Part shown: in pieces, positions 10,888-18,570 of the stretch
Layout of the letters: each line of letters starts with the position of its first letter
Position numbering within the stretch: position 1 is the stretch's first letter
Source of the DNA: a virus
Length of the DNA: 21,853 bases
Strand: one strand, 5' to 3'
IMG/VR virus record: IMGVR_UViG_3300021347_000603
Coordinates: 1-21,853 of that record
Notes under the pieces: model-generated
Told to the model about the DNA's origin: nothing
Database searches by the model: none
What the model saw: only the letters and a program-made list of their open reading frames with translations
Made by a program: the position numbers and the translations under genes

Positions 10888-11454
10888 ATGGCAGTAAATT
10901 ACGAAATTATTAACATTGGTGCATTACCAAACGACGGTTCTGGTGATCCGTTAAGAGTTGCCTTTGATAAGATCAATAACAACTTTGCAAACCTATATTC
11001 TACTGCTGTTATATCATCTAACACATATACAACAGGCAATACAGCACAACAAGTTATTTGGGAGTACCCAGCAAATGCATTTACATTGGGTTCATTTTTC
11101 ATTAAGTCTAATGATCCAGGTACAATAGACCAACAAGATGTGAGACTTGATGCTCAACTAAGTGCTAATTCAGCAAACATCAAGTTTTCAGCATACTCAT
11201 CTACACAATGGGGAAATGTGTTAATACCTGGAGACGGTTATGACATGGATGTCAACTCTGGCAATGTTAGAATCTTAATTGATCCTGATACTGCAAACGT
11301 TACTGGTTCACAAACACTATTTCATTTTATTAATTCTTCAGTTATGTTCCAAGGAGAAGCACCAGCAGGATTGCCGATCGCACTTGATGGTTATGTAGAT
11401 TCTGAACTTGCAACTGAAGTAGACGAAACAATTACAACTGAAGAAACACCATAA
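10888..11454 (+). CDS. Probable virion structural protein (tail/fibre-type)
   Basis: A 188-aa protein beginning MAVNYEIINIGALPNDGSGD and continuing PLRVAFDKINNNFANLY. This motif (NDGxGDPLRxAFxKINxNF) recurs at the start of phage tail, fibre and other virion-surface proteins. The remainder is Ser/Thr/Asn-rich with beta-type character and ends in an acidic Thr/Glu tail. Its late promoter and position in a run of late genes agree with a structural role. Which part of the particle it belongs to cannot be told. It overlaps the next gene by one base (TAATG), so the two are probably translated together. Confidence 0.65.
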   Translation: MAVNYEIINIGALPNDGSGDPLRVAFDKINNNFANLYSTAVISSNTYTTGNTAQQVIWEYPANAFTLGSFFIKSNDPGTIDQQDVRLDAQLSANSANIKFSAYSSTQWGNVLIPGDGYDMDVNSGNVRILIDPDTANVTGSQTLFHFINSSVMFQGEAPAGLPIALDGYVDSELATEVDETITTEETP

Positions 11455-14092: not shown

Positions 14093-15655
14093 ATGAGCAA
14101 CTTTAATACAAGCGGAACGGGCGAATTAGTCAAACCTGCTTATAAGAAAACAGCATTTAAAAATCAAACAGAGATTGATGACTTTGTAAAATGTTGTGAT
14201 CCTGAAACTGGTTATCTATACTTTATGGATAACTTCTTTTATATTCAGCATCCAACGCAAGGTTCAATTCAATATCATCCTTATGAATACCAAGAACGTT
14301 TAATCGACACTTATCATAATTATAGATATTCAATTGCTCTTATGCCTAGACAGTCAGGTAAGTCTACATCAGCCGCAGGCTATTTGCTTTGGTATGCTAT
14401 GTTTGTACCTGATGCTACTATTCTAATTGCCGCACATAAGTACACAGGTTCACAAGAGATTATGCAACGTATCAGATATGCATATGAAAACTGCCCTACA
14501 CATATCAAAGCAGGTGTTGTTACATACAACAAAGGATCGTTAGACTTTGAGAATGGCTCTCGTATTGTGTCAGCAACGACTACAGAGAATACGGGTCGTG
14601 GTATGTCGATCACACTCTTGTATCTGGATGAGTTTGCATTCGTAAGACCTACAATTGCCGAACAGTTTTGGACTTCTATTACGCCAACACTAGCAACAGG
14701 TGGTAAAGCAATCATTACATCTACGCCGAACTCTGATGAAGATCAGTTTGCATTGATTTGGAAACAAGCAAATAAAAATATAGATGCTAACGGAGAAGAA
14801 ACAGAACTAGGTGTTAATGGATTCAAACCTTTTAGATCATACTGGCATGAACAGCCCGGTCGTGATGATAAATGGGCAGAAGAAATCAAAGCACAGTTAG
14901 GAGACGACAGATTTGCACGTGAAATCGGTTGTGAATTCTTAATTGCAGATGAAACATTAATCAATCCTAATACGTTAATCATGTTAGAATCAGTAGAACC
15001 TACAGATAGAATGGGTCAAGTCAGATGGTTTCAAAAACCCAAGAAAGGTATGGTATACTGTGTAGGACTAGATCCATCATTGGGTACAGGCGGAGATCCA
15101 GCCGCAATACAAATTTTTGAAGCAAACACTACTACACAAGTTGGTGAATGGAAAGACAACAAAACAGATATTCCTAGACAAATTAAGTTATTAGGACAAA
15201 TTACACAATACATAGCAGAAGAAACAGGCGAACCAAACAACATATACTACTCACTAGAAAACAATTCTATCGGAGAAGCCGCTCTAATCTCACTAGCAGA
15301 ATACGGTGAAGCAAATATTCAAGGTATTTTCTTAAGTGAAAAAGGTAAAAAACGTAGAGGATACAACACAACACAGAAAGTAAAACTAGCCGCATGTGCT
15401 AAGTTTAAAACACTGATGGAAAGCAAGAAAATGAATGTAAGAAGCAAAGCATTAATTAGTGAGTTAAAAACATTCGTTGCATCTGGTGGTAGTTATCAAG
15501 CAAAGATTGGTGATAACGATGACTTAGTGATGGCTACATTGCTTGTAGTACGCATATTACAAGACATTACAGACTTTCACAGTGACTTAACTGAACATAT
15601 GCGAGACCATGATGAGATGGTTGCTCCATTGCCGTTCTTTGCTGTGATTAACTAA
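14093..15655 (+). CDS. Terminase large subunit (T4 gp17-like)
   Basis: The ATP-driven DNA-packaging motor with a C-terminal headful nuclease, docking at the portal of the empty prohead. The N-terminal ATPase has a Walker A-type PRQSGKS at residues 85-91 and Walker B LLYLDE ending at D179-E180. The coupling region TSTPNSDEDQF follows. The RNase H-like nuclease domain starts with GLDPSLGTGGD (acidic D327) and contains the later acidic cluster DNDDL at 474-478. At 520 aa it is somewhat shorter than T4 gp17 (610 aa) and probably complete. The small terminase and gp18-20 genes that usually lie nearby in T4-like phages are not in the window. Its late promoter predicts a leaderless mRNA. Confidence 0.93.
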   Translation: MSNFNTSGTGELVKPAYKKTAFKNQTEIDDFVKCCDPETGYLYFMDNFFYIQHPTQGSIQYHPYEYQERLIDTYHNYRYSIALMPRQSGKSTSAAGYLLWYAMFVPDATILIAAHKYTGSQEIMQRIRYAYENCPTHIKAGVVTYNKGSLDFENGSRIVSATTTENTGRGMSITLLYLDEFAFVRPTIAEQFWTSITPTLATGGKAIITSTPNSDEDQFALIWKQANKNIDANGEETELGVNGFKPFRSYWHEQPGRDDKWAEEIKAQLGDDRFAREIGCEFLIADETLINPNTLIMLESVEPTDRMGQVRWFQKPKKGMVYCVGLDPSLGTGGDPAAIQIFEANTTTQVGEWKDNKTDIPRQIKLLGQITQYIAEETGEPNNIYYSLENNSIGEAALISLAEYGEANIQGIFLSEKGKKRRGYNTTQKVKLAACAKFKTLMESKKMNVRSKALISELKTFVASGGSYQAKIGDNDDLVMATLLVVRILQDITDFHSDLTEHMRDHDEMVAPLPFFAVIN

Positions 15656-15672: not shown

Positions 15673-18192
15673 ATGGCAATTGATCAGGAATCCTTCAATA
15701 AACGACTCTACGATATCTTAAAAACTCGTGGATACAAACCATCGCCTAAAGACTCAAAAAACGAAAGAACTAATCCAGAAACAGCAGATGTTTTTGAGTT
15801 TCAATTTATTAAAGACGGTGAAAACTACGGTAAAGCATGGGCAACTATTGATAAAACATCATCATTAAACCTATACTATGATGATAATCAAGCAGGCAGT
15901 CCTCCAGGACAAACAAAAGGCATGGATTATGATGATTCTTGGTCTGGATTACTAAAACATTTAAAGCAATGGGCATTATCTAAACAACTAAACTTTGGCT
16001 TACATGACAGTGATCGTTTAGGTGACGATATGCGTCAGAGGGATTATTATAAAATGAAAGAAAAGATGACAGAAGGTTATCATGCTGTTAATAAGATGAC
16101 ATCATATAACGATAACATACCTAACGTAAAAGTTGTAATTCAACATGACAGACAAATCGGTGAAGGAGAGCAACGTTGGAGAAACGTACACAAGATTTTT
16201 GTTGAAAATACTGAAGGCGAACGTTTTGCAGTCCCAACTAGAATGCCAGGCATTGCACGTGTATATGGTAGACACGTAGCAGAAGGTGGAACTCCATATG
16301 ATGAAAGAGGCAAGCACATTACTCAGTTAGTAGAAGAATATACTAAGATGGCTGGATTTATTCGTGCTACACGCAGAGGAGAATTTAATGAATCTGTCGC
16401 CCAACTCATAGCAGAAGGTGTCAAACATCATAGATCAATAAAAGAAACACTGCAAAAGATGCAAAGCCATAGAGGATACAACCACTATTTTGAGTCCTGG
16501 ACTCCTGCTCTTATGGAAGACGATGCTGATCATACAAGCATTGCAGAAATGTTTTCACAAGAATCAATCGACCCAAGAATTGAAAGTGTTTTACCTATCT
16601 TAAACAAACTTAATAGTAATATCATTAACGAAATCGAAGAAGTTAATGAGTTAGATCAATGGGCAAAGTCTATTACTGAAATGGAACAGATAGACGAAGG
16701 AAAAAGAGACACACATTGTTCAGATAAGTGCTGTGGTGCAGACGTAAAAGCAGAGGACTGCACATGTTCACCAGACTGTCCACATTGCAACTGTAATGCA
16801 AAATTAAAAGAAGAAAGTGAAAAGCAAGGTGGAATGGGTACTGAAGATGATGATTTAAGAGATGAAGAATCTGGCAAGAACCATGATCCAAAGACAGGCA
16901 AAAGAATTAGACCTCATCCGTTCGATCCAGATGATGAACACTTAGAAGAAGGCAAACATAATAAGTTAGTTGTAGATGCATTAGAAATGAGTGAGAAAGA
17001 ATTTGCTGAGAAGCATCCTACTATGGCTCATAGATATGATGACATTCTAGCCGCATTTAGTGAAGAAGACTTAAAAGATAAAATAGAAAGTCCTAAGCAA
17101 CAAGAATTAGATTTAACAGAAAATGATGACTGGAGAAGTTTAATTCATGCAGACATAAAGCAAATACAACAAGCCGCTGGAAATGCTAAATCATATGAAG
17201 AAGTAATTAAGCAAAGAATTAGAGATCGTAAACTGCAAATTCCAAAAGAAGCAGACCCAGTAAAACGTAAACAGTTAGGCTCAGAAATTAGAGAGTACGA
17301 AAAGTTCAAAAATCAATATGATTTTAATAAAGCCAGTTCAGCAAAAAATGCAAAAGATGCCTCAAGAATTGAAGCAGATAGAATATTAAACAAGAAATCT
17401 GAACCATACACAAGACCAGCAGATAAAGTAACTATCGGTACTGCTCTAGCAGGACTATTAGGTGAAGAGTCAGTTATTGATGAAAAAGATTTTTCAGATA
17501 AAGAAATTAAAATGGCATATGGCATTTTAAATGATCCTAGATATAAAGGCGGTAACCAAACCGGGGCAATTAAAGCAATCGAAGGTATCAAAGCAGGATT
17601 GTCTGAGCATCCAGGAGTTAAAAGAGCAATCTACAAAACACAGAACGAGCCTGATAATTTAGAAGAAAACATTGAGATTGGCGAAAAAGGTTTTTATGTA
17701 AACGTTGAAAACGGACAAGAACGACCTTTAACATGGCCACAGTTTCAAAGCACATGGTATGACGAATTTAGAGATGATCCTGTATCACGCAACATTTCAA
17801 CAAATGAGTTATCTCAGAAGTATCAAGTATACTTAGATCAGTTAGAGGAAGAACCTTACCTCGATGAAACTAAAGCAGGTGGATTTGATTTTGCCGGAGA
17901 CTATAAAACAGGTCAAGCCGGACAATGGAAAAACACAGGCAAGACTAAAGGAAGACCTGCAAAAGTAGGTGACTTAGTTGGCGCTGAAAGCAAACATGCA
18001 CATGATGAAATGTCTGTTAGTCAAATGTCTGATGAAGATTTAGCAGATTACCTGAATGTAGATGTTAAAGATGTTAAAGCAGATAGAGATCACGCAGAAG
18101 AAGTTGCAAACGACAAATCACGTGATCATGCACCTGACAATATGTTAGAAGATATCCTACGTCTAAGTGGATATGAGAAGTATCAGAGTTAA
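15673..18192 (+). CDS. Large late phage protein with an eight-cysteine cluster
   Basis: An 839-aa hydrophilic, acidic protein with no membrane segment; I do not recognise a named family. Residues 1-115 look folded, and 130-250 contain a conserved-looking stretch (VIQHDRQIGEGEQRWRNV; GGTPYDERGKHIT). Residues 349-374 hold eight cysteines with two histidines nearby (CSDKCCGADVKAEDC, then CTCSPDCPHCNC), a likely zinc or other metal site. Long charged helical and acidic regions follow (550-590, 770-839). Several LxE tripeptides could be prohead-protease sites. The late promoter and the terminase neighbour suggest a virion or head-internal protein. A 16-aa peptide gene with the same number of cysteines follows after 10 bases. 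Translation probably starts without a leader. Confidence 0.75.
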   Translation: MAIDQESFNKRLYDILKTRGYKPSPKDSKNERTNPETADVFEFQFIKDGENYGKAWATIDKTSSLNLYYDDNQAGSPPGQTKGMDYDDSWSGLLKHLKQWALSKQLNFGLHDSDRLGDDMRQRDYYKMKEKMTEGYHAVNKMTSYNDNIPNVKVVIQHDRQIGEGEQRWRNVHKIFVENTEGERFAVPTRMPGIARVYGRHVAEGGTPYDERGKHITQLVEEYTKMAGFIRATRRGEFNESVAQLIAEGVKHHRSIKETLQKMQSHRGYNHYFESWTPALMEDDADHTSIAEMFSQESIDPRIESVLPILNKLNSNIINEIEEVNELDQWAKSITEMEQIDEGKRDTHCSDKCCGADVKAEDCTCSPDCPHCNCNAKLKEESEKQGGMGTEDDDLRDEESGKNHDPKTGKRIRPHPFDPDDEHLEEGKHNKLVVDALEMSEKEFAEKHPTMAHRYDDILAAFSEEDLKDKIESPKQQELDLTENDDWRSLIHADIKQIQQAAGNAKSYEEVIKQRIRDRKLQIPKEADPVKRKQLGSEIREYEKFKNQYDFNKASSAKNAKDASRIEADRILNKKSEPYTRPADKVTIGTALAGLLGEESVIDEKDFSDKEIKMAYGILNDPRYKGGNQTGAIKAIEGIKAGLSEHPGVKRAIYKTQNEPDNLEENIEIGEKGFYVNVENGQERPLTWPQFQSTWYDEFRDDPVSRNISTNELSQKYQVYLDQLEEEPYLDETKAGGFDFAGDYKTGQAGQWKNTGKTKGRPAKVGDLVGAESKHAHDEMSVSQMSDEDLADYLNVDVKDVKADRDHAEEVANDKSRDHAPDNMLEDILRLSGYEKYQS

Positions 18193-18202
18193 GGAGATTG
18201 CT

Positions 18203-18253
18203 ATGAATTCTAAATGTAAATGTTGTTCATGTTGTAACTGCACTTGTTGCTAA
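18203..18253 (+). CDS. Cysteine-rich 16-aa micropeptide (metallothionein-like)
   Basis: The complete product is MNSKCKCCSCCNCTCC: eight of sixteen residues are cysteine, in C-x-C and C-C pairs like those of metallothioneins. It contains no hydrophobic core, so it could only be ordered by metal. The ATG has a strong AAGGAG (18191-18196) six bases upstream, overlapping the stop of the preceding 839-aa gene. This placement is hard to explain unless the ORF is translated. The preceding protein also carries an eight-cysteine cluster. No known family of this size comes to mind. Metal binding is inference from composition; a translated regulatory leader sensing cysteine supply is the main alternative. 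Confidence 0.6.
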   Translation: MNSKCKCCSCCNCTCC

Positions 18254-18269
18254 GAGATAATGATAGAAA

Positions 18270-18413
18270 GTGGAACTAATTTTTGTATTAATTCTAATGA
18301 TGCTACCGATGATCTGTGGTGGTTTTACCTTTGTAGTAAGTCAACAAGCAGTAGAGGGTAAATTCAATGGCGGACAAGAAAAAGAAACAATCAAAAATTT
18401 ATCTAATACCTGA
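18270..18413 (+). CDS. Putative small membrane-anchored protein (47 aa, GTG start)
   Basis: Reading from GTG at 18270 gives a 47-aa product beginning MELIFVLILMMLPMICGGFT, a run of hydrophobic residues like a signal anchor. A hydrophilic tail (QQAVEGKFNGGQEKET) follows. A hydrophobic run of this quality is unlikely by chance in a short gap. The ribosome binding site is weak, and the frame overlaps the bL33 gene by 47 bases, which lowers confidence. C16 is not in a good lipobox context. A spanin-like or envelope role is possible but unsupported. Confidence 0.4.
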   Translation: MELIFVLILMMLPMICGGFTFVVSQQAVEGKFNGGQEKETIKNLSNT

Positions 18414-18570
18414 AGGTGAAACTAGAGATCATCATACATATCATTACACCGCTATTAAAACAAAAAATTTAACTGTAAGTAATACTAAGTTGAAACTTAA
18501 AAAATACAATCCGGTTAAAAGAAAACATGAGTGGTTTGTAGAAGCAAAACTGCCCCCTCATTCAAAATAA
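18367..18570 (+). CDS. Ribosomal protein bL33 homologue, phage-encoded
   Basis: A 67-aa basic protein that lines up with bacterial ribosomal protein bL33 (about 55 aa). Seen: KIYLIPEG at the start, HYTAIKTKN (bL33: HFYTTTKNK), LKLKKYNPVKRKH (bL33: LELKKFDPVVRQH) and the ending EAKL (bL33: EAKIK). It has no cysteine, so it is the non-zinc form. An extra basic leader and a short insert after residue 16 explain the greater length. bL33 sits on the large subunit near the E site. Marine phages are known to carry ribosomal proteins, chiefly bS21 and bL12, thought to join host ribosomes. The start has GAGGG (18354-18358) upstream. The gene lies between the micropeptide region and a capsid-targeted protein. 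Confidence 0.82.
   Translation: MADKKKKQSKIYLIPEGETRDHHTYHYTAIKTKNLTVSNTKLKLKKYNPVKRKHEWFVEAKLPPHSK

Follow-up and report, generated by a model that had tools for sequence, protein, structure and literature searches.

A sixteen-residue, cysteine-rich peptide gene of phages as a putative metallothionein-like accessory gene

The window, by which we mean the whole 21,853-base virus record that was analysed, belongs to a myovirus-like phage. Directly downstream of a large 839-aa gene it contains a very short ORF whose product, MNSKCKCCSCCNCTCC, has 16 residues, 8 of them Cys (Table 1); its plus-strand codons read ATG AAT TCT AAA TGT AAA TGT TGT TCA TGT TGT AAC TGC ACT TGT TGC TAA. The first-pass annotation had pointed to this ORF, to its well-spaced AAGGAG and to its position ten bases past the large gene, and we confirmed all of these at the coordinates of Table 1. 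The AAGGAG overlaps the stop codon of the 839-aa ORF (18190-18192), and a gap of ten bases separates that gene from the micropeptide ATG. The 839-aa gene has weak tblastn similarity (~28-30% identity over about one third) to large Pseudomonas phage genes, some of which are annotated as virion structural proteins. A frame resembling the GTG ORF that follows the micropeptide was seen by eye both where the peptide is present (L009) and where it is absent (L003 and L004). Elsewhere in the window, adjoining genes between 5620 and 7934 match the nucleotide-sugar epimerase and radical SAM (QueE-like) families.

Table 1. Features of the window discussed in the text.
Feature	Position	Strand	Basis or remark
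Baseplate-wedge match, E 2e-8	10888-11454		Family match
Terminase large subunit	14093-15655		Family match
839-aa gene, upstream	15673-18192	+	Without PHROG match
Cassette, present or cleanly missing between the same two genes in relatives	18190-18260 (approximate)	+	Locus comparison, tree, alignment
Shine-Dalgarno AAGGAG	18191-18196	+	6 nt 5' of the ATG; kept in L002, L009, L015 and L016
Cys-rich micropeptide gene, MNSKCKCCSCCNCTCC, motif CxCCxCCxCxCC	18203-18253 (stop included)	+	ORF reading, relatives, family scan
47-codon GTG ORF with a hydrophobic stretch	18270-18413	+	16 nt past the micropeptide stop
67-aa gene, downstream	18367-18570	+	Next long gene in most relatives, with or without the cassette

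On both strands of the window and of 300 dinucleotide-preserving shuffles we counted ORFs of 10-60 aa in which Cys made up at least 40%. The real window holds one ORF with at least six Cys, the micropeptide gene itself, and since none of the 300 shuffles produced such an ORF we do not attribute it to chance. When at least five Cys were asked for, the window gave three ORFs against a shuffle mean of 0.01, namely the micropeptide gene and two starts of a single antisense frame. The latter (LLCCIACCICVR, 12 aa with 5 Cys, minus strand, ~11014-11052) lies inside the gene matching the baseplate wedge and is probably a chance frame. Around 55 related loci, which had first been gathered through the 839-aa upstream gene without use of the peptide motif, 858 kb of strand-bases were scanned for ORFs of 10-25 aa that are preceded by a Shine-Dalgarno and contain at least five Cys (at least 30%). 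Only five were recovered (in L002, L009, L010, L015 and L016), all of them copies of the micropeptide and each directly 3' of a homologue of the 839-aa gene. Judged from its sequence, the ORF has the appearance of a genuine phage gene that lacks annotation.

The five peptide-bearing relatives, whose products include MNTKCECCSCCNCTCC, MKCECCSCCNCTCC and MSKCTCCECCNCTCC, have both the Shine-Dalgarno and the ATG. In L003-L008, L011, L012, L014, L017 and L020, several of which are nearly copies of one another, the same two genes flank no peptide; it is also missing from L018 and from more distant loci, where the next gene is different too. Some of the 55 loci stop short of the junction. The conservation check proposed in the first-pass annotation favoured the gene: where it is present, neither the ATG nor the Shine-Dalgarno nor any of the eight Cys codons has been lost. 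Across the window, L002, L009, L015 and L016, three of the eight Cys codons vary, in each case through a synonymous T/C exchange at the third base, the first two bases being constant; the probability that all three changes would fall on third positions, calculated by hand, is C(8,3)/C(24,3) = 0.028. Two linker codons change residue among the same sequences. The alignment outlined a clean unit of ~70 bp that is gained or lost as a whole. A tree of 19 proteins, 17 of them different, needs five changes to account for the distribution of the peptide (bootstrap range 4-5), and 145 of 500 label shuffles need as few as these five; the well-supported branches force at least two. Presence of the cassette does not follow the tree, and we therefore consider that it was gained or lost more than once. 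Because many close relatives are without the micropeptide gene we regard it as an accessory cassette, and as they do without it, the gene is dispensable.

With repeats and five duplicate loci taken out and the window counted, 64 viral contigs carry a micro-ORF of 14-25 aa with the CxCCxCCxCxCC motif, giving 37 distinct viral peptides, and an SD-like sequence is found in 58 of the 64. The proposal that the gene could be widespread and unnoticed is thus borne out by an unannotated family of this extent, although many close relatives are without it. Scanning viral contigs for KCxCCxCCxCxCC returned 58 stretches, and a Shine-Dalgarno and ATG followed by CxCCxCCxCxCC returned 55. When the second half of the motif was left free (Shine-Dalgarno, ATG and KCxCCxC) there were 69 stretches, 61 of them in frame with the ATG; 54 of the 61 are peptides of at most 24 aa with at least five Cys, the non-peptides being 7 in-frame and 8 out-of-frame matches. 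Among the matches listed for the bare motif, most were TGC-repeat poly-Cys frames. The family list was restricted to ATG ORFs of 12-40 aa without a CCC run, a filter that missed a branch of 20-aa peptides ending in CCCK, which the free-half scan recovered; L192, at a locus end, is also absent from the list. Eleven ORFs (e.g., L253, L107 and L135) were removed by eye as non-members before context clustering, and motif occurrences inside longer frames (e.g., L216) were left out of the counts.

Six ATG-started bacterial peptides, described below, bring the distinct full-motif peptides to 43. In this set the Cys frame was imposed by the motif search, but the four linker positions were not; they are occupied by K, E, S, N, T, D or Q in 167 of 172 cells, and I, R, A, H and G each fill one of the remaining five. 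The Cys frame contains no aromatic residue in any of the 43, the peptide of L202 having two Tyr 5' of the frame, and the window peptide has neither aromatic residues nor His. Related variants of 12-24 aa also exist. The second branch, with 20-aa peptides such as MEKCECCGCTAPCGCDCCCK on contigs that reach 195 kb (L291-L333, e.g., L321 and L326), follows the pattern M(E/K/D)KCxCCGCxAPCxCxCCCK, while other contigs have at the matching position only 12-aa CxCCxCxCC forms such as MEKCDCCNCECC; length changes therefore respect the Cys modules. The neighbours of the 20-aa branch include PhoH-like genes (from clustering), UvdE (PF03851, in L324) and HNH genes (in L308).

Neighbour clustering, counted by eye, outlined at least 10 phage gene orders that carry the gene. 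Examples besides the position 3' of the 839-aa gene are full-motif peptides flanked by DUF6267 (PF19782) and cytidylyltransferase-like (PF01467) genes, which an NfuA-like gene accompanies in some loci; others are flanked by PhoH and an exonuclease, sometimes with one extra small gene, or adjoin an IscA-like gene, and in several neighbourhoods no gene was recognised. The relatives of the DUF6267 gene are mostly from cyanophages, with pelagiphage and methylophage ones among the rest, and the exonuclease too has close relatives in cyanophages, which suggests that the phages with these two contexts are T4-like and aquatic. Among 80 loci collected through the DUF6267 gene without use of the motif, some of which end soon after that gene, the full peptide was present in one (the already known contig of L178) and a looser form, MCKCESCKCDPCTCSN, in one more, so that here too only a minority carries this accessory gene. 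The representative phage neighbours that were annotated included no recognisable metal transporter or metal regulator. No isolate phage carrying the peptide was recovered: the junction gave no blastn match, and an 80-bp stretch over the cassette matched 109 records, none covering 80% of it; in the one of these records that was inspected, ACG-2014f, the match proved to be a different frame. Pattern scans of the whole records of C48C1, HTVC008M, Melnitz-3, AG-345-P14, XG4, S-PM2 (deletion mutant), P-RSM6 and ACG-2014f pointed to 23 places, and none of the 10 that were read was such a peptide ORF.

A scan of genomes in which Lys was required 5' of the first Cys gave 32 stretches, seven of them believable (L235, L240, L244, L245, L252, L258 and L261), and the remainder were judged to be repeats or frames within other sequence. 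Motif matches occurred in 8 of 112 genomes of the L244 family, 4 of 107 of the L245 family and 19 of 129 of the L235 order. Counted as members were 5 of the 112 Porticoccaceae (L240, L244, L258, L261 and G111, named from record titles), 2 of the 107 Woeseiaceae (the L245 family) and only L235 in its order. Among the non-member matches, L385, L413-L416, L419-L421 and L427 were opened and the rest judged repeats from the matched letters. The peptide of L240 starts with GTG. Most of the bacterial members come from metagenome-assembled or single-cell genomes, in which a prophage or a binning error is possible; by eye their neighbours look bacterial. In L244, L258 and L366, of the Porticoccaceae family, a hydrophobic micro-ORF of 28 aa (MEITTGTMVFTCVLLTAIFLSEFWLRDD in L244, near-identical in the other two) lies just 5' of the Cys peptide, and the pair is possibly a two-microprotein operon.

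In the Oligoflexia member L235 the peptide starts 18 nt past an ArsR-family gene (PF01022). Searching the 129 genomes of its order for homologues of this regulator gave 20 at E 1e-12 or better, and in 15 of the 20 loci, L235's own included, an ORF of 12-60 aa with at least three Cys overlaps the regulator or lies just 3' of it; as a control, 2 of 57 other ORFs of at least 100 aa in the same loci have such a neighbour. Thus, L519-L538 present a recurring two-gene unit, an ArsR-type regulator followed by a Cys-rich microprotein, which may be metal-responsive. While L235 (L519 in this series) encodes exactly CxCCxCCxCxCC with no C-terminal extension, 13 of the 15 microproteins end in a VAxFLRHLAEFFDKK-like stretch, helix-like in appearance and absent from the phage peptides, and the ArsR evidence may therefore reach the phage peptide by analogy only.

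The reading that we favour, with a probability of roughly 0.6, is that of a real accessory micro-gene, a moron-like cassette, whose product would be a minimal metallothionein-like peptide that binds metal through thiolates. We favour metal binding on account of the way in which the Cys are framed and of the polarity of the linkers; by analogy, the ArsR operon found for one bacterial member would lend it indirect support. In the mechanism that we propose, eight thiolates on the 12-residue frame, separated by polar linkers, would leave the peptide soluble in the cytosol and let it fold around soft metal ions in a small cluster, whereby metal in the infected cell could be buffered or sequestered. 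We infer translation, metal binding, a benefit to the phage and the candidate metals, which may be Cu(I), Zn(II), Cd(II) or Fe. Small, Cys-dense (CxC/CC) and free of aromatic residues, the window peptide falls within a broad sequence definition of metallothioneins. As it is below the length for a Pfam or NCBIfam search, longer members stood in for it: seven of 20-25 aa had no match at E up to 10 in these databases and two had none among PDB sequences, short Cys-rich queries being hard cases for such searches.

The copper metallothioneins of Neurospora crassa and Agaricus bisporus, with 26 aa and 7 Cys in the arrangement X2-[CXC]-X5-[CXC]-X3-[CXC]-X2-C-X3, were once regarded as the shortest, as described in PMC4755600. 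The phage peptides resemble them in being very short and Cys-dense with CxC elements and in the proposed intracellular metal binding, but most of them have only 14-18 aa and contain 8 Cys, with CC pairs among these, and they have no recognised sequence relation to the fungal proteins. Bacterial metallothioneins of the SmtA/BmtA type are described in PMC10612145 as well folded, with a zinc-finger fold and commonly with His ligands, and an SmtB/ArsR repressor is described in PMC8790569 as controlling a metallothionein in Anabaena. Being Cys-rich is common to SmtA/BmtA and our family, and gene order suggests SmtB/ArsR-family control for the Oligoflexia member and its operon relatives; in contrast, the window peptide has only 16 aa and no His, and the longer members are without a family match. 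The ArsR-linked microproteins are likewise small ORFs with a Cys module, but they are found in bacterial genomes, and 13 of the 15 differ in having fewer or differently spaced Cys besides the C-terminal stretch.

Other readings of the same peptide were weighed against metal binding. An unlikely one is that it holds iron or an Fe-S cluster, or passes it on, together with phage-encoded NfuA, IscA or IscU. An NfuA-like gene (cluster c34) lies directly 5' of the peptide in seven loci (L219, L178, L183, L188, L190, L200 and L208), with fused Fe-S_biosyn and NifU domains in the L219 copy and a PHROG of unknown function as its best match. IscA-like genes lie directly 3' in L228 and L231, 1.5 kb 5' in L206/L207 and 4.2 kb 3' in L210, and IscU within 4.4 kb in L189, L193 and L210 (clusters c30 and c38, with a Pfam check on the L210 copies). 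By locus, Fe-S genes accompany the peptide in 14 of 80 cases and occur in 1 of 298 loci counted as peptide-free, but the 80 include five contigs entered twice and the 298 include ~17 loci of the 20-aa branch and L192. When whole contigs, picked for size, were searched for PF01521 (A-type carriers), it was present in 4 of 12 with the full motif, in none of the 9 from the variant branch and in 3 of 6 peptide-free controls, two of these three being probably near-copies; the carriers are thus no rarer in controls than in full-motif contigs. The contrast thus vanishes, and we do not rely on the Fe-S link, which stays suggestive; moreover, the lineages are not independent, and in the window, as in most contexts, the peptide has no Fe-S gene next to it. 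We consider it rather improbable that the peptide acts as a thiol or redox buffer, a reservoir of reduced Cys or a glutaredoxin-like thiol without a specific metal. Its composition, half Cys with polar linkers, would suit such a role, but the Cys spacing is kept while linkers vary in the copies found without the motif, which a simple reservoir would not need, and one bacterial form sits 3' of an ArsR-type regulator. The spacing argument is not strict, since variants with other spacings exist.

Cys-rich leader peptides of sulfur genes occur in actinobacteria, and the first-pass annotation had offered a Cys-sensing leader, in which the ribosome's passage over the Cys codons would set expression of the following gene in cis, the product being inert. 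The gene is indeed very short, Cys-dense and just 5' of other genes, and in 16 of the 64 viral members the next ORF of at least 45 aa lies at least 40 nt away or was not found, so that an attenuator would fit there. In 43 of the 64, however, that ORF starts 0-9 nt past the stop (16 nt in the window), which leaves no space for an attenuator and makes a leader very unlikely. The downstream genes are also diverse (exonuclease, cytidylyltransferase-like, IscA-like and unknowns) and the linkers are confined to polar residues, so that this proposal is disfavoured. We give almost no credence to a chance ORF or untranslated sequence. Cys-rich frames do arise from TGC/TTG repeats, as in many of the matches to the bare motif and to the order scan, but the shuffles and the background scan argue otherwise, conservation over unrelated gene contexts contradicts it, and so do the in-frame placement of most free-half matches and the almost entirely polar linkers of the distinct peptides.

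More tentatively, and at somewhat less than even odds, the peptides could form a new class of micro-thioneins of 12-24 residues, about half of them Cys, on a mobile cassette of T4-like (cyanophage- and pelagiphage-related) and other phages; they would serve to control copper, zinc or iron during infection, perhaps in connection with Fe-S assembly by the phage, and would have been exchanged with bacterial genomes. All metallothioneins known to us are longer. In literature on metallothioneins or Cys-rich metal-binding proteins together with phages or auxiliary metabolic genes, where subscription journals are thinly covered, titles and abstract openings contain no report of such a peptide. If translated and metal-binding, these peptides would be shorter than the 26-aa fungal metallothioneins and phages would handle metal thiolates directly; the family would also be a striking case of genes too short for ordinary gene callers to report. 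Since synthesis of such peptides costs little, metal binding can be tested directly. MSKCKCCKCCNCTCC is a second candidate metal-binding peptide alongside MNSKCKCCSCCNCTCC.
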